Part shown: piece by piece, positions 11,437 to 31,451 of the stretch
Position numbering within the stretch: the first letter of the stretch is position 1
How the letters are laid out: each line of letters starts with the position of its first letter
NCBI GenBank assembly: GCA_030037895.1
Contig: JASHPW010000024.1
Coordinates: 1 to 39,143 of the forward strand
Source: Xanthobacteraceae bacterium
GTDB lineage: Bacteria; Pseudomonadota; Alphaproteobacteria; Rhizobiales; Xanthobacteraceae
Length of the DNA: 39,143 bases
Direction: 5' to 3'
The notes under the pieces: model-generated
The model's input: the letters and a program-made list of their open reading frames with translations, nothing else
Told to the model about the DNA's origin: nothing
Databases searched by the model: none
Position numbers and translations under genes: made by a program

Positions 11437-13485
11437 ATGGGTATCTTTGATGCATTGACCACCGCCGTCGCGGGGTTGCAGGCGCAGTCGTTCGCGCTGC
11501 AAAACATTTCCGGCAACATCGCCAATTCGGAGACCACCGGATACAAGGAAACGGACACGACCTTTGCGGACATGGTTTCGGCCGCCGCTCAGGGGCAGCA
11601 GTCCGCGGACGGAGTAACCGCCAACTCGGTCGCCACCAACACGGTGCAGGGGACGATCGAAAGCACGTCGGTGTCGACCGACATGGCGATCAATGGCGAC
11701 GGCTTTTTCGTCGTCGCGATGCCGACCGGTACTGCCGACAACGAGCCGGTATTCAGCGGCGTCGACGATTATACGCGCGCCGGCGACTTTCAGTTGAACT
11801 CGGACGGATATCTGGTCAACGGCTCGGGCTATTATCTGATGGGCATTCCCCTCGATTCCTCCACCGGCAACCCGGTCGGCAACACCCCCGAGGTTCTGCA
11901 GTTCAACGACGAGTTCGTGCCGGCGGAGGCGACGACGGAGATCACTTATCAGGCGAACCTGCCGAGCGATCCGAGTTCGGGGATATTGGACCCGGTCGAT
12001 TTCGAAGCCAACCCGCTCGCCGGCGCGCCTGTCGCGGCGGAGATCGACGGCACCGGCGCAACCCTCAAGCCGGACGCGGCGGCTGTTGGAACAAGTTCGG
12101 GCGTTGATCTCACCTCCGACACCACGCTTACTTCGCTGGGTCTGACGACAGGTGACACGTTTACGATCGACGACGGCACGACGACGACGACGTATACCAT
12201 AGCGTCAGATGACACGATCACGGCCGACAACGGCACGGACACGGAGACATATGACTCTGCGGGATCAGAAAACACGGTCGGCGACCTGATAACCGCGATC
12301 AACGGTGGCGCTACGGGCGGTAACCCTACGGTCACTGCCGCCCTCAATTCGAGCAACGATCTCGTTCTCACCGGCGCCAACGATACGGTCTTGATCACCA
12401 CCGGGGGCACCGGCGCGAGCGATGTTGGCTTCGGCTCGGGCAATAATTCGTTTGACCCGACCAATTTGCTGACGCAGGGCGCCGTATCGCCAGGCCAGAC
12501 TCTGACCGTCTCGGTGGGTGGCGGCCCGGCGCAGACCATCACCTTCGGCACCGGCACGGGCGAGGTCGCCACTTTGACGCAATTGCAGAGCGCGGTTCAG
12601 GGTCTCACCGGCGTGACCGGCACGGTTAACACCGCGAATGGCGATATCACGCTGACGGCGCAAAGCCCGACCGACAGCATCACCGTCGGCGGCACGGCAA
12701 CGGCGGAGGAGTTCGGCATCCAGAACACCACCGCGCTTCCCGCCAACGGCACCGTCGTCGCCAACGACTCCACGACCTTCACCGATCAGTCGATCGACGG
12801 CGGTTCCATCACGGCTTATGACTCCGAGGGCAATCCGGTCAACGTGCAGTTCCGCTGGGCGGAAACGAGCAGCGGTACGTGGCAGCTCTTCTACGAAACC
12901 GATTCAAGCGCCACCGGCACCGAAGCCCAATGGCAAAACGTCGGCACCACGTTCACGTTCAATTCCAGCGGTGAATTGACGCCGCCAATCTCGAGCGTGG
13001 CGATCGATAACCTGACGGTGAACGGCGACAATCTCGGCAACGTCCAGCTCAATTTCGGCGCCAACGGCCTCACTCAGTTTGCCGATTCAAGCTCGAGCAG
13101 CGAGGCCACGGTGAACACGCTGCAGCAAAACGGCTACGCCGCAGGCACGCTGCAATCAATCGCGGTCAACGATCAGAACGAGATCACGGGAACGTTCTCC
13201 AACGGGCAGACCATTCCGTTGGCGCAGATCACGCTGGCGACGTTCTCCGGAGCGGACTCCCTTCAGGCGCTTAATGGCCAAGCCTATGCAGCCACCACCG
13301 ATTCAGGACCGCCGGTCTACGGCGCCGGCGGCACCGTCGAGGGCAGCTCGCTCGAATCCTCCAACGTCGATATCGCGACGCAATTCAGCGATCTCATCGT
13401 GGCGCAGCAAGCCTACTCGGCCAACGCCCGCGTGATGTCGACCGCCGACCAGATGATCCAGAGTTTGCTGCAAGTGATTCAATAA
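11437..13485 (+). CDS. flgE: Flagellar hook protein FlgE, enlarged
   Basis: FlgE polymerises into the hook joining rod and filament. N-terminal D0 motif LQAQSFALQNISGNIANSET and C-terminal QFSDLIVAQQAYSANARVMS are the conserved rod/hook/filament ends. At 682 residues it is much longer than a typical ~400-residue hook protein. The excess is two flagellin-IN-like domains at about residues 225-345 and 350-430 (TVGDLITAINGG, GQTLTVSVGGGPAQTI). GGAG lies 7-8 nt before ATG 11437, and a sigma-54 site lies further upstream. flgK starts 51 nt downstream, so it heads a flgE-flgK-flgL operon. Confidence 0.95.
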   Translation: MGIFDALTTAVAGLQAQSFALQNISGNIANSETTGYKETDTTFADMVSAAAQGQQSADGVTANSVATNTVQGTIESTSVSTDMAINGDGFFVVAMPTGTADNEPVFSGVDDYTRAGDFQLNSDGYLVNGSGYYLMGIPLDSSTGNPVGNTPEVLQFNDEFVPAEATTEITYQANLPSDPSSGILDPVDFEANPLAGAPVAAEIDGTGATLKPDAAAVGTSSGVDLTSDTTLTSLGLTTGDTFTIDDGTTTTTYTIASDDTITADNGTDTETYDSAGSENTVGDLITAINGGATGGNPTVTAALNSSNDLVLTGANDTVLITTGGTGASDVGFGSGNNSFDPTNLLTQGAVSPGQTLTVSVGGGPAQTITFGTGTGEVATLTQLQSAVQGLTGVTGTVNTANGDITLTAQSPTDSITVGGTATAEEFGIQNTTALPANGTVVANDSTTFTDQSIDGGSITAYDSEGNPVNVQFRWAETSSGTWQLFYETDSSATGTEAQWQNVGTTFTFNSSGELTPPISSVAIDNLTVNGDNLGNVQLNFGANGLTQFADSSSSSEATVNTLQQNGYAAGTLQSIAVNDQNEITGTFSNGQTIPLAQITLATFSGADSLQALNGQAYAATTDSGPPVYGAGGTVEGSSLESSNVDIATQFSDLIVAQQAYSANARVMSTADQMIQSLLQVIQ

Positions 13486-17058: not shown

Positions 17059-18636
17059 TTACGTCTCTGGGCCGGCCGCCGCCGAAGCGGTCGCTGCGGC
17101 GGATGCCGCGGTATAAGGGCCGAGCTCGGCGAATAGCGGTCCAAGAATCGCTTCATATTTGCGCCAGCGCCCCACCGCATTCCGATAGATTGGTTTGCGA
17201 ACCTGAACCGCACTGGCGGTGCGGATCGGCCGTTCGTTGCGGTAAAAATCGAGGCAATGCGCATCCCAGGCAAGGCCGCAATGGGAAACGATACGCCGCG
17301 CCACGCCCTCCAGATCGCCGACCAGCTCCTCGTAATGTACGTCCATGATGCGCCCGGGCGGCAGAACGCCGTGCCAATGCGCCATCAATTGCCGATAATG
17401 CCGATAGTAGCGGCCAAGCTCGGCGAGATCGTAAGTGTGCTCATGCCCTCTGGTGAAATGCATTGAGAAGCAGGACAGGCAGGTGTCGACGGGATCGCGC
17501 ACGGCGTGAATGATCGTGGCGTTGGGCAATACCAAATGGATGAGGCCGACAAAGAGAAAATTCACCGTCATCTTGTCGGTAATGCGCATTGCCGTCGGCG
17601 CCCGCTCCGTGACGCTGTCCACATAAAGCTTGCCCAAGGTGCGGAATTGCTCGGGCGACATTTCCAGCGTCATTTCCGGAAAACGGGGCGCGCCGGGCAG
17701 CCGATTGCGGATCGACCCCGCGACTTGATCGAGCAGCGGAATCTCGCCGGCACCGGAGATCTGCGGGTGGCTCGCCAATATCTGCTCGATGAGCGTCGTC
17801 CCCGAGCGCGTCATGCCGACAATGAACACGGGAGTTGCCGACGGCTCGCCGCAGCCTTGGCGCGCCTGAATAAAGTCGCGGCCGATCAATGCGCGGATCA
17901 GGTCCATCCGGCCAAGCGTGTCGGCTTCGTCGTAAACGATCTGCCGGCGCTTCAGCCGATTGGCGCTCGTGAGATGCGGTGACGCCGATTCGGGACGGTC
18001 CAGACTGTCATAGGCCTTGGCCAGTGCGAAATGCAGGTGCATCTGGTCTGCGATCGGAAGCGTCGCGGAATTCTCCGCCGCGTTCTCGAGCGCGGCGAGA
18101 TAACGGCCGCCGGCGGCGAAGGGCGTGATTGCGGCCAAATTGTCGTAATAGGAAAAATTCCCTGGCGCCAGATCGATAGCCCGTTCGAAGAATTGTTGCG
18201 CCTCCTTCAGCCGTCCTCTTTCTTTCAACAGCAGTCCCAGGTTGTTGTAAGCGCCGGCGAAGCGCGGGTTGCCCTTGATCGCTTGCCGGTATTTGGCCTC
18301 GGCTTCATCGAATCTCTCCAGCTCCGCAAGCGCGAGGCCCCAATTACAAAGCGCCTCGGGGTAATTGGGTTTCAGTTCAATGGCGCGTTGAAATGCGGTG
18401 GTCGCTGCCGCGAACTTGCCCAAGGCGCTGAGCGCGTGGCCGAGGTTGTTATGGATCTCCGGAAGAGCGGAGTTGAGTGCGATAATCCGCCCGTAGAGTT
18501 GAATCGCCTCGACAAACCGACCGGCTTGGTGACGCGTAAACGCATCTTTGCAAAGCGACAGCAGCTTGACGTCAAGCCGCATAAGCGCGGGATTGGTTGG
18601 GACTTTTTTTGATCGCGCGGGTAAAGAATTGGGCAC
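17059..18636 (-). CDS. TPR-sulfotransferase fusion
   Basis: The 525-residue protein has TPR repeats at about 25-225 (for example IHNNLGHALSALGKFAAATT and AYNNLGLLLKERGRLKEAQQ) and a sulfotransferase domain from ~268. VFIVGMTRSGTTLIEQILAS is the 5'-phosphosulfate-binding loop for PAPS, and IIHAVRDPVDTCLSCF holds the 3'-phosphate-binding RDP motif. It should transfer sulfate from PAPS to a protein or glycan. The position beside flaF and flagellin suggests a secreted or filament-linked acceptor, which is inference. The start is GTG 18636; ATG 18582 is an alternative. A CtrA-like box lies ~80 nt upstream. Confidence 0.88.
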   Translation of the reverse strand: MPNSLPARSKKVPTNPALMRLDVKLLSLCKDAFTRHQAGRFVEAIQLYGRIIALNSALPEIHNNLGHALSALGKFAAATTAFQRAIELKPNYPEALCNWGLALAELERFDEAEAKYRQAIKGNPRFAGAYNNLGLLLKERGRLKEAQQFFERAIDLAPGNFSYYDNLAAITPFAAGGRYLAALENAAENSATLPIADQMHLHFALAKAYDSLDRPESASPHLTSANRLKRRQIVYDEADTLGRMDLIRALIGRDFIQARQGCGEPSATPVFIVGMTRSGTTLIEQILASHPQISGAGEIPLLDQVAGSIRNRLPGAPRFPEMTLEMSPEQFRTLGKLYVDSVTERAPTAMRITDKMTVNFLFVGLIHLVLPNATIIHAVRDPVDTCLSCFSMHFTRGHEHTYDLAELGRYYRHYRQLMAHWHGVLPPGRIMDVHYEELVGDLEGVARRIVSHCGLAWDAHCLDFYRNERPIRTASAVQVRKPIYRNAVGRWRKYEAILGPLFAELGPYTAASAAATASAAAGPET

Positions 18637-18863: not shown

Positions 18864-19229
18864 TTAGTGTTTGCCGCGCAGGGCCGCGGCGATGCCGCGA
18901 TTGATCTTGATGATCGTTTGCAGGTGTCTTGGCTGCGGCTTGGTCATCAGCGAGAACGTCTCGCCCATGACGAAGGCGCCGATCTTGACGAGGTTGTCGC
19001 GGATCGTGGTCGGCAGCTTGTTGTCGGTCCGCACCACGGCGTCGATGAATACCGTCCAAAGCCGGCGATTGTACATGAGCGCGTCGTCGAGACCGCGCGG
19101 CTTGCCCTGCCAGGAATCGTGCACCTCCTGCAGTTTGGCGGCGGCTTTCAGGAGCAGGGTGGCTTCCAACTCGCGCGGCGGCACCGTTTCCCTGGCGGTT
19201 TTAGCGTAGGCTTGGCTGGCGTAGTGCAC
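18864..19229 (-). CDS. flaF: Flagellin synthesis regulator FlaF
   Basis: FlaF is an alphaproteobacterial cytosolic protein needed for flagellin production and export; in Caulobacter it works with the translational repressor FlbT. The 121-residue product shows the family pattern: ASQAYAKTARETVPPRELEA, ALMYNRRLWTVFIDAV, LPTTIRDNLVKIGAFV and LIxIN-type KINRGIAAAL at the end. It is transcribed in the same direction as flagellin, 232 nt behind it and past a strong terminator, so it probably has its own promoter. No flbT gene lies next to it. Confidence 0.92.
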   Translation of the reverse strand: MHYASQAYAKTARETVPPRELEATLLLKAAAKLQEVHDSWQGKPRGLDDALMYNRRLWTVFIDAVVRTDNKLPTTIRDNLVKIGAFVMGETFSLMTKPQPRHLQTIIKINRGIAAALRGKH

Positions 19230-19461: not shown

Positions 19462-20607
19462 TTAGCTGAACAGCTTGAGCACCGACTGGTTCGCCTGGTT
19501 GGCGATCGACAGTGCCGAGATTTCCAACTGCTGTTGGGTCTGCTCGGTGAGCAGGTCGGCGCTCTCCTCGTTCTGGTCGGCCGCCACCAGGTTGCTGGCG
19601 CCGGTCTGCAACGTGTTGATCATGTTGGTTGTGAACGTCTGCCGGGTGCCGATAACGCCGGAATTGGTGCCGAACGTCTCGGTCTGGGTTTGCACCAGCG
19701 TGATCGCGTCGTTGATGTCGCTAATCGCGCCGGTGAGCGCGGTGCTGTCCTGGAAGGACCCGGCGCCCGAGCCGCTGATCGTCGACAGTCCAAGGCCCGC
19801 TGCGTCGTAATTCACGCCGTCAATGGTCAATGAACTCGTCCCGGCCGCGTCGAAGTTGATTATCAGATTGTCGCCGTTCAGGAGATTGACGCCGTTGTAG
19901 CCGGCGTCCGAAGCCATCTCATTGATCTGCGTCAGCAGCGTGTTGTAGTTGTCTTGCAGCGTGGTGCGGGTGGAACTCGTGCCGTAGACGGCGTTATTGG
20001 CGGTGGCGCTGGTGGTCAAACCAAGGGTCGCCGTCAACGCATTGGCGTCAATCGTGAAGCTCGTGCCGGGCGAGTTGGCGGTGAGCACGATTTCGCCGTT
20101 GTGGTCGCTTGCGGTCAAGGCGCCGGCGCTGCCGAGGCCGGTTACCGCATTGATCGCGGCTTCGATTTGGCTCGCGGTTTCGCTCACCGATACGGAGACC
20201 GCATAGACGCTCCCGCCCACCGAGATGCTGAGAACGCCCGCCGTCGCGACCGTGGCGGTGGTGACGGTGGTCGATCCGGTCGTCGTCGCCACGTCCTGGC
20301 TGGCCTGCTGCGCCTGCTGCACCGTGGACAGCGCCTGTTCGAGCAGGCTGGTCAGGCCGGTGAGGCCGTTGGTGGCCGCGTCGATGGTTTGCTGGCCCTG
20401 TCCGATCTGGTCGAGCAAGGAGGAGAGCGAGTTGGCGGTGTTGGTCAGATTCTGCGACGTGAAATAGGCGCTCGGATTTTGGGCGGCGGAGTTGACCGCG
20501 TCGCCGGTGGCAAGCGCTTCCTGGGTGGTCGTCAGTTCGGCGGACGTTTGCTGCAGCGATAGCAGGTTCTGCCGAATACCCGCCGTCAAGGTGACGTTAC
20601 TGGACAT
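19462..20607 (-). CDS. fliC: Flagellin
   Basis: The filament subunit, 381 residues. The N-terminal D0/D1 helices (SSNVTLTAGIRQNLLSLQQT, then TGDAVNSAAQNPSAYFTSQN) and C-terminal ISALSIANQANQSVLKLFS are conserved flagellin ends. The variable middle (about 120-205) is an IN-like module (GVLSISVGGSVYAVSVSVSE) related to those in FlgE. It is Ser/Thr-rich and Cys-free, suited to surface glycosylation. GAAGGG lies ~8 nt upstream of ATG 20607. A strong terminator follows, so it is monocistronic. I did not find a convincing sigma-54 or sigma-28 site in its leader. Confidence 0.96.
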   Translation of the reverse strand: MSSNVTLTAGIRQNLLSLQQTSAELTTTQEALATGDAVNSAAQNPSAYFTSQNLTNTANSLSSLLDQIGQGQQTIDAATNGLTGLTSLLEQALSTVQQAQQASQDVATTTGSTTVTTATVATAGVLSISVGGSVYAVSVSVSETASQIEAAINAVTGLGSAGALTASDHNGEIVLTANSPGTSFTIDANALTATLGLTTSATANNAVYGTSSTRTTLQDNYNTLLTQINEMASDAGYNGVNLLNGDNLIINFDAAGTSSLTIDGVNYDAAGLGLSTISGSGAGSFQDSTALTGAISDINDAITLVQTQTETFGTNSGVIGTRQTFTTNMINTLQTGASNLVAADQNEESADLLTEQTQQQLEISALSIANQANQSVLKLFS

Positions 20608-20949: not shown

Positions 20950-21774
20950 ATGCACGGATCGTCGACGATACCTACGGCCTTCGAGATTGGTGCCGCCAGG
21001 TCCGCGGCCACCGCGCCCGCGACCGGCACAGCGGTCAACCTCGTCGTCGCGACGCCGTGCTTCGGCGGGCAGATTTCCGCTCTCTATGCGACATCGCTGT
21101 TCAAGCTGCAAAAACTGGTGCGGGGATACCGCGATTTTAACCTTAAGGTCCTGTTCAAGGACGGCGACGCGCTGATCACGCGGGCGCGCGCGAGCCTGAT
21201 AGCGCAGTTTCTCGAAGACGCAGCCGCGACCCATCTGTTGTTCGTCGATGCCGATATCGGTTTCGAGCCGCAGCAGGTCTTGCGTCTGATCGAATGCGGC
21301 GCCGACATGTGCGCCGCGATCTATCCGGTCAAGCTGATCGACTGGGGCAAGGTCAGATCGACCATCGCGGCCGCGCGTCCGCATCCGGCCGCCGCGTTGA
21401 ACTACGTGTTCGAGGTCGAGGATCCCAATGCCGTGACCGAAAAAGGCGGATTCGTCAAAGTCCGCTACGCCGGCACCGGCTTCCTCATGATCCGTCGCCA
21501 GGCATTGGAGCGGATGTGCGCGCGCTATCCGCAGCTGCAATATAAGCGCGACCATTCGCTCGATGCCGCGACCGCAAGCGACAGGAGATTCGCCCTGTTC
21601 GAATGCATGATCACGGAAGACGGCACTTACCTGAGCGAGGATTTCGCCTTCTGCAAGCGCTGGACCGACATCGGGGGCGAGATCTGGGCGGACCTCGGCA
21701 GCAAGCTCAGCCACGTCGGCTCGATGACATTTTGCGGCGATCTGTCTTCGCAGTTCGTCCCCGCCGGCGCGTAA
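20950..21774 (+). CDS. Glycosyltransferase-like protein with DxD motif
   Basis: This 274-residue protein starts a GT-A-like Rossmann fold at residue ~29 (VNLVVATPCFGGQISALYAT) and has HLLFVDADIGFEPQQVLRLI at 95-114, with D100 and D102 forming the nucleotide-sugar/metal DxD. FVKVRYAGTGFLMIRR and YLSEDFAFCKRW resemble the acceptor-side motifs of such enzymes. It probably transfers a sugar. Divergent placement beside flagellin suggests the filament or its glycan as acceptor; this is inference. ATG 20950 is 26 nt behind two CtrA boxes, so a short leader is expected; I see no strong Shine-Dalgarno. Confidence 0.7.
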   Translation: MHGSSTIPTAFEIGAARSAATAPATGTAVNLVVATPCFGGQISALYATSLFKLQKLVRGYRDFNLKVLFKDGDALITRARASLIAQFLEDAAATHLLFVDADIGFEPQQVLRLIECGADMCAAIYPVKLIDWGKVRSTIAAARPHPAAALNYVFEVEDPNAVTEKGGFVKVRYAGTGFLMIRRQALERMCARYPQLQYKRDHSLDAATASDRRFALFECMITEDGTYLSEDFAFCKRWTDIGGEIWADLGSKLSHVGSMTFCGDLSSQFVPAGA

Positions 21775-21781
21775 CGGCGCC

Positions 21782-22657
21782 TCAGGCCAGCAGATCGACC
21801 AGACTGCCGCTCACGCCGTCAGCGCTCAGAATGGATGCGGCGCTGCTTGCCATCTCCTCCGCCAACGACTCAACGGTGCTGCTGGAAGACGTGCTGGATT
21901 TGCTGGTGGAAGATGTGCTTGTGCCGGAAGTCGAGCTGGTGTCGGTGGAGGAGGTCGACGCACTCGACGAGGTGGTCGCCGTTGAAGAGGCCGCTTGCGG
22001 GCTGAAGGTGTCATTTTCGCTGCCGAAGCCAAGCGCGGCGGCGTCGTTACCACTGCCCGAAACGGTGACGGTCTCCGTGTCGTCTCTTGCGGTGATGACC
22101 AAGTTGCCGCTGGAGTTGATCGAAGCGGTCACGAAGGCACTACCGGAGTTTATGGCGTTGATCAGGTCACCGACGGTATCCGTTCCCGTCGACGTATATT
22201 GTGTCGTGTTGGTGCCGTCGCTGACGCTGAATGTGCCGCCCGGGAGAATCCCCAGGGCAAGAAGCGACGTGGTCGTCGTCACCGGCACGGTGCTCGTTCC
22301 GGTCGCCGGGGTTACCGACGCGCTCGATGAAGCGGTGCTCGTGGCCGCCGAAGTGGACGATGCGTCGGTCCCGCTTGATGACGAACTCGTCGACGTGCCG
22401 TTCAGCACGCTCTGCACCAGGGCCGAAATTTGGCTGTTGACGCGGTTCAAGGCGGTTTCATTGGCGATGCTGGACAGGCCTTTTGACAGGTCGGTCTCGG
22501 CCGTGCTCATGGTGTTGATCAGTGAATCGTCCGCCGTCGACGCTTGGCTTTGGGCTTGCGCCTCACTCCAATAGTTTTGATCCTGCTGGTAGAACGATTG
22601 GCTCTGGTTCCAGTAGCTTTGATCTTGCTGCCAGAACGAGACGCTTTGGATGCTCAT
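21782..22657 (-). CDS. Ser/Thr-rich orphan with FlgE-like IN domain
   Basis: I know no named family for the whole protein (291 residues). Residues 7-34 are two 14-residue repeats, SFWQQDQSYWNQSQ and SFYQQDQNYWSEAQ. A helical Gln/Asn/Ala stretch follows, then a Ser/Thr linker, a module at ~125-221, and a second Ser/Thr linker. The module (LLALGILPGGTFSVSDGTN, TDTVGDLINAINSG, ASINSSGNLVITA, ALGFGSENDTFSP) closely parallels the first insert in FlgE (TVGDLITAINGG, ALNSSNDLVLTG, VGFGSGNNSFDP). There is no Cys and no signal peptide. This fits a protein exported by the flagellar system and perhaps glycosylated. It converges on the glycosyltransferase-like gene, with 7 nt between. Confidence 0.8.
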   Translation of the reverse strand: MSIQSVSFWQQDQSYWNQSQSFYQQDQNYWSEAQAQSQASTADDSLINTMSTAETDLSKGLSSIANETALNRVNSQISALVQSVLNGTSTSSSSSGTDASSTSAATSTASSSASVTPATGTSTVPVTTTTSLLALGILPGGTFSVSDGTNTTQYTSTGTDTVGDLINAINSGSAFVTASINSSGNLVITARDDTETVTVSGSGNDAAALGFGSENDTFSPQAASSTATTSSSASTSSTDTSSTSGTSTSSTSKSSTSSSSTVESLAEEMASSAASILSADGVSGSLVDLLA

Positions 22658-22738
22658 GGCTTCTACCGTTTCGCGATCCGATCGCCCGCCCCGCGTTCAT
22701 GCCAAGATACCGTTAATTTAGCGTGTTCATACAGATGA

Positions 22739-22757
22739 TTTACGCTCGGTTAACCAT
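22739..22757 (+). promoter_or_regulatory. CtrA box upstream of TPR-glycosyltransferase
   Basis: TTTACGCTCGGTTAACCAT fits TTTA-N7-TTAACCAT, one base off the consensus. It is 75 nt before ATG 22832 and 82 nt before the divergent orphan gene. A further TTAA at 22713 lies nearby. Confidence 0.65.
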
Positions 22758-22831: not shown

Positions 22832-25399
22832 ATGGGCAAACTTGCAACAACGCGGCGTTCGCATGAGGCGGCGCAGTCCATTGCGCGGGCGCTGACGCTG
22901 CACCAGCAGGGCGAGCTTAAAAAGGCCGGGCAAATCTACGCGTCCGTTCTTGCCGACGACCCACGCAATTTCGATGCCCTGCATCTGAGCGGGGTGCTCA
23001 GCCACCAGCAGGGCCGGTCGGTCGAGGGCTTGCGCCTGGTCGCCGCCGCGCTCAAGGCGAGACCCGGATCGACGGATGCTCTCGCCAATTATGCGGTCAT
23101 TCTCGATGCGCTCAGGCGCCATGAAGAAGCGCTGAAAATTTTCGACACCGTGCTGACGATGCGCGGGAGTGACGCCGGCACCCATTACAATCGCGGCAAT
23201 GCACTCAAGGGTCTCGGCCGTTACACCGAAGCTTTGGCGAGCTATGGCCGGGCGCTGGCGCTGGCGCCCGGCCACCTCGACGCGCTCGACAATCGCGGCA
23301 GCACGCTGGCGGCGCTCGGTCGCCACGAAGAGGCGCTCGCCGACTATGACAAGGTGCTGGCGCTGCGGCCGCGGCACGTGAAGGCGCTCAACCGGCGCGG
23401 CATCGCGCTCGGAGCGCTCAAGCGGCCGGAGGAAGCGCTTTCCGCATACGATGCCGCCCTGGCCGTCGAGCCGGGTGACGCGGAGGTGCTGAACAATCGC
23501 AGCGTGGTGCTGGCGGAACTGGGCCGGTTCGAGGAGGCGCTGCAAAGCGCCGAGCGGGCGCTCGCCGTCAAACCGGACTACGCCGACGCGCTCTATAATC
23601 GCGGCAACGCTTTCATCGGGCTTGGACGCGCCGAAGAGGCGCGCGCGAGCTACGAAGCGGCGCTCGCGCTGGAGCCGCAACGGCTCGATGCGCGCAACAA
23701 TCTCGGTCTGGTGCTGATGAGTCTCGATCGGTCCGCCGAAGCGCTGGCGAACTACGACAGCGTGCTCGCGATCGATCCGGATCATGTCAAAGCGCTGCAC
23801 AACCGCGCCAATGCGCTGGCCACGCTGGATCGCTTCGAGGAGGCGCTTGCCTCGTGCGACAAGGTGCTGGCGAAAGATCCGGCGCAGGTCGACGCGCTCA
23901 ATACCCGCGGCGTCGTGCTCGGCAAGCTCGACCGCCATGACACGGCCCTGGCGAGCTTCGATACGGCGCTGGCGGCGGCGCCCGATCGCGTCGACATTCA
24001 TATCAATCGGGGTATGGCTCTTTTGGAACTCGGTCGGATCGAGGAGGCTCTGCAAGGCTTCAACAAGGTCATCGCGCGCGAGCCCGACAACATCGCCGCC
24101 CTGGTCAGCCGCGGACACGTCTTGGCCAAAGACAAGCGCTTTGCCGAGGCTTTGGCGAATTACGACCGGGCGCTCGAGGTCGAGTCCGACCATGCGGGCG
24201 CGCTCATCGATCGCGGCGTCGCGCTTGCGGAATTAGACCGCGTCGATGAGGCGCTCGCTTCTTACGAGAAGGCGCTTTATGACGGGCCGCATATTGTCGC
24301 CGCCTTCGTCAACCGCGGCAACGCTCTGCTCAAAGTGGGGCGCATGGAGCAGGCGCTCGCCAGCTACGCCGCGGCGCTCGCGCGCGAACCGGACAATGCC
24401 GACGCCAAATTCAACATCGCGATCGCTCGTTTGTGCAAGGGAGATTACCGCGCCGGCTGGGAGGGATACGAGTACCGGTGGAAGCGGAAGGATCTGAAGG
24501 CGCAGCGCGGCGACTATCAGCAACCCGTCTGGCAAGGCGAAAAGGAGCTGAATGGAAAGACCATCCTGCTCCATGCCGAGCAGGGCCTGGGCGATACGAT
24601 TCAGTTCGTGCGCTATGCGCCGCTGCTCGCCGCGGACGGTGCCAGCGTGCTGCTCGCCGTCCAACCTCCGCTTAAGAAGCTCATGTGCTCCGTGCCGGGG
24701 GTTTCCGCCGTGTTCACCGACGGCGAGGTGCTGCCCGATTTCGACACACACTGCCCGCTGCTCAGCCTGCCGCTGGCGTTTGGAACCGAGCTGGCAACGG
24801 TGCCGACCAACATTCCTTATCTGCGGCCGTATCAGGAGCGCATCGATATGTGGCGACCGCGGCTGCCGGAGAACGGGCGTCCGCGGATAGGGCTGTGCTG
24901 GGCGGGAAACCCGGAGCACTTGAACGACCGCAATCGTTCGATGCCGCTCGAACGCCTCGCCAGTGTCCTCTCGATAACCGGCCTCGACTTCGTCAGCGTG
25001 CAAAAAGACGTCAGCGAGGCGCAGGCGGCCATCCTGCGCGAGCACGGCGTCGTTCAGCTCGGCGGGCAATTTGCCGATTTTGCCGACACCGCCGCTGTGG
25101 TCGCCATGCTCGATCTTGTCATCGCGGTCGATACCTCGGTTGCGCATCTTGCCGGCGCCCTGGGCAAGGCGGTCGCATTGCTGGTGCCGTTTTCGCCGGA
25201 TTGGCGGTGGCAGCGCGATCGCACCGACAGTCCCTGGTATCCGACCATGCGGATATTCCGGCAAACCGCGTTCGGCGATTGGGACGGGCTGGTCGAGCGG
25301 CTGCGCCAGGAGCTGGTCGACGTCGCGTGCCGCCCGTCATCCCGGGCTCGCGCTTCGCATCCCGGGAATGACGGCAATTCGCCTACAGCTTGCGGCTGA
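22832..25399 (+). CDS. Large TPR-glycosyltransferase (SPINDLY/OGT-like layout)
   Basis: An 855-residue protein made of about 15 TPRs (for example THYNRGNALKGLGRYTEALA and ALYNRGNAFIGLGRAEEARA) up to ~550, then a GT-B-like domain: KTILLHAEQGLGDTIQFVRY, RPRIGLCWAGNPEH, LVIAVDTSVAHLAGALGKAV and SPWYPTMRIFRQ. The layout recalls O-GlcNAc transferases, while the catalytic half is nearer the GT9-like type linked to flagellar loci. It likely glycosylates Ser/Thr of secreted or filament proteins. ATG 22832 is preferred, since ATG 22769 would sit too close behind the CtrA box. The last ~20 residues are encoded by a palindromic repeat. The 3' end overlaps convergent flgN by 17 nt. Confidence 0.85.
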   Translation: MGKLATTRRSHEAAQSIARALTLHQQGELKKAGQIYASVLADDPRNFDALHLSGVLSHQQGRSVEGLRLVAAALKARPGSTDALANYAVILDALRRHEEALKIFDTVLTMRGSDAGTHYNRGNALKGLGRYTEALASYGRALALAPGHLDALDNRGSTLAALGRHEEALADYDKVLALRPRHVKALNRRGIALGALKRPEEALSAYDAALAVEPGDAEVLNNRSVVLAELGRFEEALQSAERALAVKPDYADALYNRGNAFIGLGRAEEARASYEAALALEPQRLDARNNLGLVLMSLDRSAEALANYDSVLAIDPDHVKALHNRANALATLDRFEEALASCDKVLAKDPAQVDALNTRGVVLGKLDRHDTALASFDTALAAAPDRVDIHINRGMALLELGRIEEALQGFNKVIAREPDNIAALVSRGHVLAKDKRFAEALANYDRALEVESDHAGALIDRGVALAELDRVDEALASYEKALYDGPHIVAAFVNRGNALLKVGRMEQALASYAAALAREPDNADAKFNIAIARLCKGDYRAGWEGYEYRWKRKDLKAQRGDYQQPVWQGEKELNGKTILLHAEQGLGDTIQFVRYAPLLAADGASVLLAVQPPLKKLMCSVPGVSAVFTDGEVLPDFDTHCPLLSLPLAFGTELATVPTNIPYLRPYQERIDMWRPRLPENGRPRIGLCWAGNPEHLNDRNRSMPLERLASVLSITGLDFVSVQKDVSEAQAAILREHGVVQLGGQFADFADTAAVVAMLDLVIAVDTSVAHLAGALGKAVALLVPFSPDWRWQRDRTDSPWYPTMRIFRQTAFGDWDGLVERLRQELVDVACRPSSRARASHPGNDGNSPTACG
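25334..25374. repeat. Palindromic CGTCATCCCGGG-type intergenic repeat
   Basis: Arms CCGTCATCCCGGG (25334-25346) and CCCGGGAATGACGG (25361-25374) pair with one bulge around a 14-nt loop. This kind of repeat is common between genes in Bradyrhizobium-like genomes. Here it lies inside the last codons of the TPR-glycosyltransferase and gives its odd tail. Confidence 0.75.
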
Positions 25400-28626: not shown

Positions 28627-28682
28627 GTCGAAGGCCGCAGCCCGGATTGCGCGGCGCGCAATTCGGGGCAAGCGACACGCCA

Positions 28683-30395
28683 ATGCCGCTCCGGATTTCG
28701 TTCCGCTCGATCCGGGCTACAGAACTTCGCGCACCGATGCCGCAAGAGTCATCGCAACTTTCGCCGCCGAACCTGTCGCGCCTGCTTCGCCGCGCGCAGC
28801 GCGCGCACGCGGAGGGCGATCTCGTCAAAGCGGAGCGGCTCTACAACGCGTTGCTGCAGCATGATCCGGACAATTTCGACGCGTTGCACGACCTCGGCCG
28901 GATCAATTATCGGCGCGGCCGGCTCGATGCGGCGCTGGCGCTCATTCAGGCGGCGCTGCGGACGGATCTTTTTCGCGCCGACGGATTCGCCAGCCTGGGG
29001 CTCGTGTTTCATTCCCTGAAGCAGTTCGAGCGCGCGCTCAAGAGCTACGACGAGGGCCTGCGCATCGCGCCGGACGACGTGGAGTTGCTGAACCGCCTCG
29101 GCGTGGCGCTGCTCGAGCTGCGCCGGCCGCGCGAGGCGCTGGAAACTTTTGAACGCCTGCTCACCCGCGATCCTGACAACGTCGACGCGCTCGGCAATCG
29201 CGGCAATGCGCTGCACAGGCTCAACCGCCCGCAGGAGGCGATCGCCGTTTATGACCGGGCGCTTGAGCTTGCGCCGGGAAATGCCCAGCTCTGGACCAAC
29301 CGCGCCATCGCGCTGCGCCGGCTCGATCGGCCGCATGAAGCGCTGATGAACGTGACCATTGCCCTCGTCTGCGCCCCGGATTTTGCCTCGGCTCGGTTCG
29401 TGGAGAGCGCCGTGCGCTTGACCTTGGGCGATTTTGCCGCGGGCTGGCGCGGTTACGAATCGCGCTGGAACGGGGCGCTGGCGCCGCAGCGGCGAAATTT
29501 CGCGGCGCCGCTGTGGCTGGGCCGGGAATCGCTCGCCGGCAAAACCATTCTCCTCCACGCCGAGCAGGGTTTTGGCGACACCATCCAGTTCGTGCGCTAT
29601 GCGCCGCTGTTGGCCGCGCGCGGCGCCAGCGTCGTGCTCGAAGTCCAGCCGCAACTGGCGCGGCTGTTGTCGCGCACGGCCGGCGTCGAGACGGTGGTCG
29701 CGCGCAAGGAGCCGTTGCCGCGCTTCGACGTCCATTGTCCGCTGCTCAGCCTGCCGCTGGCATGCGGCACCGAACTGCCAACCATCCCCGCGCATGTTCC
29801 CTATATTGCGGCGGTCGCCGAAGAGGTTGCCGCATGGCAGGTGCGCTTGCCGCGGCGGCCCCGCGTCGGATTGGCGTGGGCCGGAGAGCGGGCGCACGAC
29901 AACGACCTCAACCGTTCGATCCCCCTTGCGACGCTTGCGCCGATACTCGACGTGCCCGACCTTGCCTTCGTCAGCCTGCAGCACGACGTCCGCGAGGAGG
30001 ACGCCGCGGTCTTGCAAAGCCGTCCCGACCTGTTGCCGATCGGGTCGAAATTCCGCGATTTCGCCGACACCGCCGCCGCGATCGCGCCGCTCGACGCGGT
30101 GATTTCGGTCGATACCGCGGTCGCGCATCTCGCCGGCGCCATGGGCAAGCCGCTGTTCCTTTTGCTGCCCTTTGCCGCAGATTTCCGCTGGTTGCGCGAG
30201 CGCGCGGACAGCCCCTGGTATCCGACCGCGCGACTTTTTCGCCAACCGCAATTCGGCGATTGGCACAGCGTCGTTGATGAATTGCGGCGGGAGCTGGCGC
30301 GCTTCGGCAGCGTCCTTCCTTCCCTTGCCGGCGCCGCCCGCCGGAGCATGAGGGTCGGGGATGATCTCGTCGCTTCGCTCTTCGCGCTGACTTAA
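28683..30395 (+). CDS. Second TPR-glycosyltransferase
   Basis: A 570-residue paralogue of the protein at 22832-25399. It has about six TPRs (for example LLRRAQRAHAEGDLVKAERL and ALGNRGNALHRLNRPQEAIA) in place of ~15, and an equivalent catalytic half: KTILLHAEQGFGDTIQFVRY, PRVGLAWAGERAHDNDLNRS, VISVDTAVAHLAGAMGKPLF and DSPWYPTARLFRQPQFGDWH. It probably modifies a flagellar or surface protein. ATG 28683 has GGGG about 10 nt upstream; ATG 28737 is also plausible. A weak CtrA-like site precedes it. Confidence 0.83.
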   Translation: MPLRISFRSIRATELRAPMPQESSQLSPPNLSRLLRRAQRAHAEGDLVKAERLYNALLQHDPDNFDALHDLGRINYRRGRLDAALALIQAALRTDLFRADGFASLGLVFHSLKQFERALKSYDEGLRIAPDDVELLNRLGVALLELRRPREALETFERLLTRDPDNVDALGNRGNALHRLNRPQEAIAVYDRALELAPGNAQLWTNRAIALRRLDRPHEALMNVTIALVCAPDFASARFVESAVRLTLGDFAAGWRGYESRWNGALAPQRRNFAAPLWLGRESLAGKTILLHAEQGFGDTIQFVRYAPLLAARGASVVLEVQPQLARLLSRTAGVETVVARKEPLPRFDVHCPLLSLPLACGTELPTIPAHVPYIAAVAEEVAAWQVRLPRRPRVGLAWAGERAHDNDLNRSIPLATLAPILDVPDLAFVSLQHDVREEDAAVLQSRPDLLPIGSKFRDFADTAAAIAPLDAVISVDTAVAHLAGAMGKPLFLLLPFAADFRWLRERADSPWYPTARLFRQPQFGDWHSVVDELRRELARFGSVLPSLAGAARRSMRVGDDLVASLFALT

Positions 30396-31355: not shown

Positions 31356-31359
31356 TTAC

Positions 31360-31451
31360 TTCACTCGCTGCTACTACTTCACTCGGTGCTACTACTTCAT
31401 TCGGTGCTACTACTTCATTCGGTGCTACTATACTTCACTCGGTGCTGCTTA
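31360..31451. repeat. 18-bp tandem repeat array between flgA and flgH
   Basis: Five units start at 31360, 31378, 31396, 31414 and 31434. The plus-strand unit is TTC(A/T)TTCGGTGCTACTAC-like; the fourth unit is 20 bp long and the fifth diverges at its end. The fifth unit encodes the last codons and the stop of flgA (SSTE-stop), so the array looks like a repeated copy of the flgA 3' end. It fills the gap to flgH and covers its ribosome-binding region. Confidence 0.88.

Follow-up and report, generated by a model that had tools for sequence, protein, structure and literature searches.

A Flagellin_IN-type module on an unnamed helical scaffold in a candidate flagellar accessory protein of Xanthobacteraceae

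The P0001 gene and its flagellar surroundings

The window, the whole stretch of 39,143 nt that was analysed, is the entire contig C148 of a Xanthobacteraceae assembly of 3.27 Mb in 148 contigs that is ~90% complete. It carries an open reading frame, P0001, that runs from ATG to stop and encodes 291 residues (Table 1). Around P0001 lie genes for a flagellin and FlaF, for FlgE, FlgK, an FlgL-like protein with Flagellin_N, a TPR sulfotransferase, a rod-binding protein, FlgI, FlgA and FliM, and for two proteins with FlgE/F/G domains, which we take to be FlgG and FlgF. The original prediction placed P0001 among flagellin and glycosyltransferase genes. The flagellin is matched by Pfam; the glycosyltransferases are less clear-cut. 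The 274-aa product of the convergent gene at 20950 finds no Pfam family and is a putative glycosyltransferase from a reading of its sequence, and the C-terminal Glyco_transf_9 match of the divergent TPR protein reaches 20.4 bits against a cut-off of 22.

The layout of this divergent neighbour resembles that of the flagellin glycosyltransferase FlmG of Caulobacter, a CtrA-dependent protein of TPR plus GT-B type whose TPR part binds flagellins (PMC7591256). The two share the two-part layout, and CtrA-type sites lie between the neighbour and P0001; however, FlmG modifies flagellins, and the Glyco_transf_9 match of the neighbour stays below the cut-off.

P0001 is a real gene, since it has orthologs in 14 of 20 same-genus genomes (its own counted) and is under purifying selection. 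Over four pairs, dN/dS is 0.08-0.22 for residues 1-86, 0.13-0.21 for the central module and 0.11-0.32 for the tail; the Ser/Thr linkers give 0.18-0.71, with one value for linker 1 not computable. A genome scan yielded twelve relatives, all of them MAGs, which bear the labels Xanthobacteraceae, Hyphomicrobiaceae, Hyphomicrobiales or Proteobacteria. A profile search of 248 family genomes found full-length matches in this genus only.

The flagellar context of P0001 is conserved. In 13/14 ortholog loci the divergent neighbour is homologous to the TPR protein, and the 20950 gene, which has strong matches in 15/20 genus genomes, lies on the other side in 12/14, followed by flagellin in 11 and by the contig end in one. 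P0001 is ~5 kb from the 20950 gene in G001, and its neighbours differ in G016. Six genus genomes are without P0001 (G002, G007, G011, G012, G017 and G019). Neither flagellin nor FlgI was found in G011 and G012, the G019 contig stops ~140 bp beyond the neighbour gene, and a different ORF occupies the syntenic place in G002; G007 has flagellin and FlgI, yet P0001 was not found there. Weak matches in G021 and G050 were rejected as orthologs; by eye, they are flagellins bearing such a module.

Table 1. Coordinates of P0001, its parts and associated features (window positions unless a locus is named)
Feature	Position	Strand	Remarks
FlgE	11437-13485	+	hook protein of the window
FlgE first insert	12205..12471	+	homologous to the P0001 module
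FlgE second, diverged IN-like insert	12457..12747	+	own branch in the tree
TPR + sulfotransferase protein	17059-18636		Sulfotransfer_3, 161 bits
FlaF	18867-19229		
Flagellin	19462..20607	-	PF00669 + PF00700
Convergent neighbour (20950 gene)	20950..21774	+	274 aa; no Pfam match at E up to 1
P0001 ORF	21782..22657	-	291 aa; stop codon within coordinates
C-terminal tail, residues 263-291	21785..21871	-	conserved; end GSLVDLLA; alignment, dN/dS
Ser/Thr linker 2, residues 222-262	21872..21994	-	composition
Flagellin_IN beta module, residues 115-221	21995..22315	-	Pfam match, FlgE homology, model, Foldseek
Ser/Thr linker 1, residues 87-114	22316..22399	-	low pLDDT
Head + predicted long helix (14-85), residues 1-86	22400..22657	-	homologous to unnamed stand-alone family
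Two tandem 14-residue repeats, residues 7-34	22556..22639	-	private to this genome
Second conserved upstream block with TTAAC	22699..22725	-	~55 nt before P0001 start codon
CtrA-type box between P0001 and TPR gene	22739..22757		full site TTTACGCTCGGTTAAC, 1 mismatch, overlapping exact half-site TTAACCAT
Divergent neighbour, TPR repeats + C-terminal Glyco_transf_9	22832..25399	+	Glyco_transf_9 sub-threshold; FlmG-like layout
Second protein with C-terminal Glyco_transf_9	28647-30395		sub-threshold; TPR-like part by eye
Tandem repeat	31357-31446		18-base unit, 4.9 copies
Stand-alone gene of G032	L127 9728-10096		
Stand-alone gene of G073	L126 9549-9836		

A Flagellin_IN module between Ser/Thr linkers

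P0001 begins with a head and a predicted long helix, ends in a conserved tail and carries between them a beta module flanked by two linkers. Ser and Thr make up 71% of linker 1 and 80% of linker 2, versus only 25-27% of FlgE, FlgK, FlgL and flagellin. The pair of 14-residue repeats that had been predicted in the head is present: the copies are identical at 10/14 residues, a value that none of 20,000 shuffled versions of residues 1-86 reached, and at 31/42 positions as DNA. The pair is a private duplication, however, and not a trait of the family; a motif search finds one copy in 12/13 orthologs of other genomes and zero in 1/13.

The full-length protein falls into no family of Pfam, NCBIfam or PHROGs, as anticipated by the original prediction. 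It matched none of the plasmid sequences searched, and the ortholog profile found no match in the PDB by sequence. A Pfam scan at E up to 1 returned PF07196 alone; Flagellin_N and Flagellin_C, the Flg_bb_rod, D1, D2 and Flg_bbr_C domains of FlgE and the N- and C-terminal domains of FliD were all absent at this threshold. The one match, to Flagellin_IN (PF07196), covers residues 142-191 with 28.9 bits in the protein scan, above the curated cut-off of 22.7; in the genome scan with PF07196, P0001 scored 33.3 bits and was the sole match at E up to 0.001. The module itself is a known domain. Profile searches of the two parts gave a flagellar type for the module and, for the N-terminal ~86 residues, an unnamed family that the original prediction had missed.

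The structural model of P0001 is confident only within the module: block means of pLDDT are 87-94 over residues 121-190, 59-76 over 191-220 and 43-66 over residues 1-86. A Foldseek search of the PDB with this model placed Vibrio flagellin filaments on top, followed by FliD and FliC D2/D3 chains. Three Vibrio flagellin matches lie at E up to 0.001 (best 1.9e-4), and the flagellin, FliD and FliC matches span 1.9e-4 to 1e-2; TM-scores by query length are low, at 0.19-0.28, and from E 7.7e-3 upward the list also includes phage baseplate and tail chains. The predicted fold of the module is like that of the outer domains of flagellin, FliD and FliC.

The closest relative of the module in the window is the first insert of FlgE. 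BLASTP aligns P0001 148-220 with FlgE 266-341 at 38/78 identical columns (49%, E 6e-14), and this alignment encloses all three short stretches on which a colinear likeness to the insert had been proposed. A second, weaker stretch (E 2e-4) links P0001 to the second FlgE insert. The two IN-like inserts of FlgE stand in tandem (12205-12747), the second strongly diverged, and neither gives a PF07196 match at E up to 1. Inserts of the FlgE type were also found outside the genus, in four genomes (G121, G166, G095 and G224).

The best tree unites the 14 P0001 modules in one group next to the FlgE first inserts (support 55/92); the group is present in 52% of 200 bootstrap trees, the bootstrap is unsettled, long branches are flagged and a placement of the group within the FlgE modules is not firm. 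The scaffold probably gained the module in one event, with the FlgE first insert as source. Since tree support is weak, this single capture is the simplest, not a firm, reading. We also considered whether the modules of P0001 and FlgE evolve in concert inside each genome; this is unsupported, as the P0001 modules group together.

Although it scores as a Flagellin_IN domain, the P0001 module is carried by a helical scaffold, with a Ser/Thr linker on either side, and not by a flagellin, FliD, FlgK or FlgE, and P0001 is without the rod, D1, D2 and C-terminal domain matches that FlgE shows. Other axial proteins also carry the IN motif; FlgK1 of Rhodobacter sphaeroides, for example, has three or more copies (PMC7277832). 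What is new is therefore not the domain but the architecture in which it is found here, together with the family of the scaffold. The matches listed in the literature searched, outside which most subscription journals lie, include no description of such an architecture.

Stand-alone relatives of the scaffold and CtrA-type sites

Profile comparison places residues 1-86 of P0001 in an unnamed family whose other members are small stand-alone proteins. The ortholog profile matches such proteins in other genera at its N-terminal positions only (G027, E 2.7e-6; G094, G139 and G193, E 2.5e-4 to 3.2e-4); these values refer to one genome each, and across 248 genomes just the best remains significant. 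With the four added to the orthologs, the profile found matches in 47/248 family genomes, and a larger profile, which holds some of the proteins it finds, in 58/248 (18/47 genera); both counts include the 14 of the genus. A profile built from 16 stand-alone proteins only was run against 2,687 reading-frame segments of at least 60 aa from 20 loci of the genus. Its top 14 segments are exactly the 14 P0001 orthologs, at E 3e-8 to 1.1e-5 (P0001 itself 1.6e-7), and the next segment follows at 0.11. The stand-alone profile matched 14/297 genomes of the order, own genome included (P0001 6.9e-7 in the genome scan); the matches in G372, G399 and G482 arise by construction, their proteins being part of the profile. 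Outside the genus, stand-alone matches come from 57 genomes, 44 in the family search and 13 in the order search.

The stand-alone proteins have 72 to 157 residues, depending on the starts chosen. Three members gave no Pfam or NCBIfam match above cut-off, and two gave none against PHROGs. Models of P0001 and of a stand-alone protein each predict one long helix from residue 14 to ~84 at low confidence (helix 14-83, mean pLDDT 62, in the stand-alone protein). By eye, the C-termini of several stand-alone proteins resemble the LVDLLA of P0001 in their hydrophobic-D/N-hydrophobic pattern; the similar tail of the G032 protein is longer.

Genomic context was examined at 24 of the 57 extra-genus genomes with a match. 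When 17 loci were searched with the window's flagellar proteins, a query set without FlhA, none gave a match; the nearby frames of 12 of these loci were read and include no FlhA. Among seven further loci, flhA adjoins the stand-alone gene in three, all from another family (G390, G416 and G458; FHIPEP, E < 1e-258), and the remaining four show neither flhA nor a match to these queries, so that 21/24 loci have no flagellar neighbour. At 5/17 loci (G027, G094, G139, G119 and G112) the stand-alone gene adjoins another small-protein gene. It is this small neighbour, not P0001, that resembles YjfB_motility (PF14070): in G027, G112 and G119 it is the only match per genome, sub-threshold at E 0.03-0.23. 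No match reaches the cut-off, however, and there is none in G094 and G139, where a homolog of the small gene is present, or in the window genome.

FlgI is found in all 14 scaffold positives of the 297 order genomes versus 221/297 overall, which is weak evidence because the positives come from few families. Flagellin is present in 53/58 scaffold-positive versus 151/190 other family genomes (p 0.048), a small difference. Two genomes, G032 and G073 (99% and 97% complete), have a stand-alone gene, detected at E 1.5e-9 and 2.2e-9 with a profile built without them, and show no Flagellin_N or FlgI matches. These homologs speak against a strictly flagellar role of the scaffold, which was rejected as a strict flagellar marker.

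The CtrA consensus is TTAA-N7-TTAAC or the half-site TTAACCAT (PMC3692519). Two conserved blocks lie upstream of P0001. The first, GATGGTTAACC..GTAA with variation, is present in 13/14 orthologs and missing in G016; the TTAAC of the second is found in 14/14, G016 included, and reads ATTAAC in 12. An exact half-site lies upstream of 10/14 P0001 orthologs and a full site with at most one mismatch upstream of 6/14. The window holds four exact half-sites versus 0.17 expected; they lie between the flagellin and 20950 genes, between P0001 and the TPR gene, and upstream of the FlgI and FlgF genes. Sites of this type occur often in the loci compared, however, with full sites upstream of 33/137 and half-sites upstream of 28/137 predicted genes. 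Against this background the 6/14 and 10/14 for P0001 are a smaller excess than against shuffles, which preserve only the single-base composition, and P0001 shares the site type with its flagellar neighbours without standing out. Since G016 is without both the GGTTAACC box and the divergent TPR neighbour, this box may be an element of the TPR gene. P0001 is a candidate member of a CtrA regulon: the full site and half-site at 22739-22757 fit the consensus but are shared with the divergent gene.

A full site (at most one mismatch, within 200 bp) lies upstream of 13/26 stand-alone genes, drawn from 24 genomes, versus 13/309 control genes, which are other crudely predicted genes of at least 150 aa in the same loci (Fisher p 8e-10, for genes that are not independent). 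The 13 positives represent 8 genera and 4 families; two genomes gave tandem pairs. These pairs of the stand-alone protein, in G463 and G041 (L174 9663-10218; L177 9697-10252), have a full and a half CtrA-type site upstream of the 5' copy.

Possible export and role of P0001

Axial proteins typically lack Cys. The original prediction described P0001 as free of Cys and of a signal peptide, and both features are borne out. No Cys occurs in the 3,889 residues of the 14 P0001 orthologs, the 1,551 residues of 16 stand-alone proteins or the 8,692 residues of 13 FlgE proteins; seven cytosolic-type neighbours contain 2 to 11 each, FlgL and FliM one, and FlgK, flagellin and FlgI none. Because exported FlgL has one Cys, its absence is no strict export mark. 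Hydrophobicity of the first 60 residues reveals no Sec-like stretch in P0001, whose most hydrophobic 15-residue window scores 0.04 versus 2.37 in FlgI, presumably a Sec substrate.

From the absence of Cys and of a Sec stretch, the Ser/Thr linkers and the FlmG-like neighbour we infer an exported, possibly glycosylated accessory. P0001 would have arisen from two older parts, a scaffold and a Flagellin_IN module. The scaffold, a small Cys-free helical protein, would comprise residues 1-86 and probably the C-terminal tail; the module would have been placed once between helix and tail, most likely from the FlgE first insert, with Ser/Thr linkers on both sides. Such a protein could exit through the flagellar export gate without a Sec signal. 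Its helical ends would dock on an axial or export part of the flagellum, and the module would point to the outside like its counterparts in flagellin, FliD or FlgE. Before export, the FlmG-like TPR protein encoded by the divergent gene might modify the linkers in the cytosol. What can be read directly from the genomes is conservation, purifying selection, homology of both parts, synteny and regulator-type sites. We give even chances to the reading of P0001 as a flagellar-regulon accessory that displays a hook-type domain, would be exported and might be glycosylated and bind hook or filament. The observation behind the original prediction is confirmed, and its interpretation is partly supported.

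A broader proposal is more tentative, and we lean against it: that Hyphomicrobiales have an overlooked protein family, small, helical and without Cys, which is under CtrA-type control and engaged in flagellar export or assembly, and that in a single Xanthobacteraceae genus one member gained a hook outer domain between its helix and its tail and became a secreted, probably glycosylated accessory of hook or filament. If these readings are true, P0001 is a flagellar accessory of a layout without a family in Pfam, NCBIfam or PHROGs, and a hook outer domain is shown moving into an unrelated scaffold. P0001 would then also be a candidate non-flagellin substrate for an FlmG-like protein, and a small-protein family with CtrA-type sites, adjoining flhA in some genomes, could be tested in cultured relatives.

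P0001 could instead act in the cytosol, for example as a FlgE chaperone or as a handle or decoy for the TPR protein, which would recognise it by the module shared with FlgE; the divergent TPR-protein homolog in 13/14 loci fits this, as does the flagellin binding of the FlmG TPR part (PMC7591256). However, the homologous modules in this search lie in exported proteins of FlgE and flagellin type, and P0001 has no Cys. Ser/Thr-rich linkers, here at 71% and 80%, would also be unusual for a chaperone, and we hold this reading unlikely.

We put an equally low probability on a non-flagellar role at the envelope or pole, with the scaffold part of a CtrA-linked cell-cycle programme and P0001 merely resident in a flagellar cluster. 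It would account for the 21/24 stand-alone loci without a flagellar neighbour and for the stand-alone genes of G032 and G073, and CtrA-type sites are not, as a rule, specific to flagellar genes. On the other side stand the flagellar module and synteny of P0001, flhA beside the stand-alone gene in three genomes, the sub-threshold YjfB_motility neighbour in three genomes and, weakly because few families contribute, FlgI in 14/14 order positives versus 221/297 overall. That P0001 is a functionless, decaying duplicate of a flagellin or FlgE piece is very improbable: its long low-complexity linkers and private internal duplication could be read this way, but dN/dS of 0.08-0.32 in the three structured parts does not fit relaxed selection in all parts, and the termini and upstream blocks are conserved.

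Further features stand out elsewhere in the window. The TPR + sulfotransferase protein within the flagellar cluster points to possible sulfation of some flagellar component. Another protein with a C-terminal sub-threshold Glyco_transf_9 match is encoded beyond the divergent TPR gene, followed by a short tandem repeat (Table 1), and several relatives carry further TPR-protein homologs.
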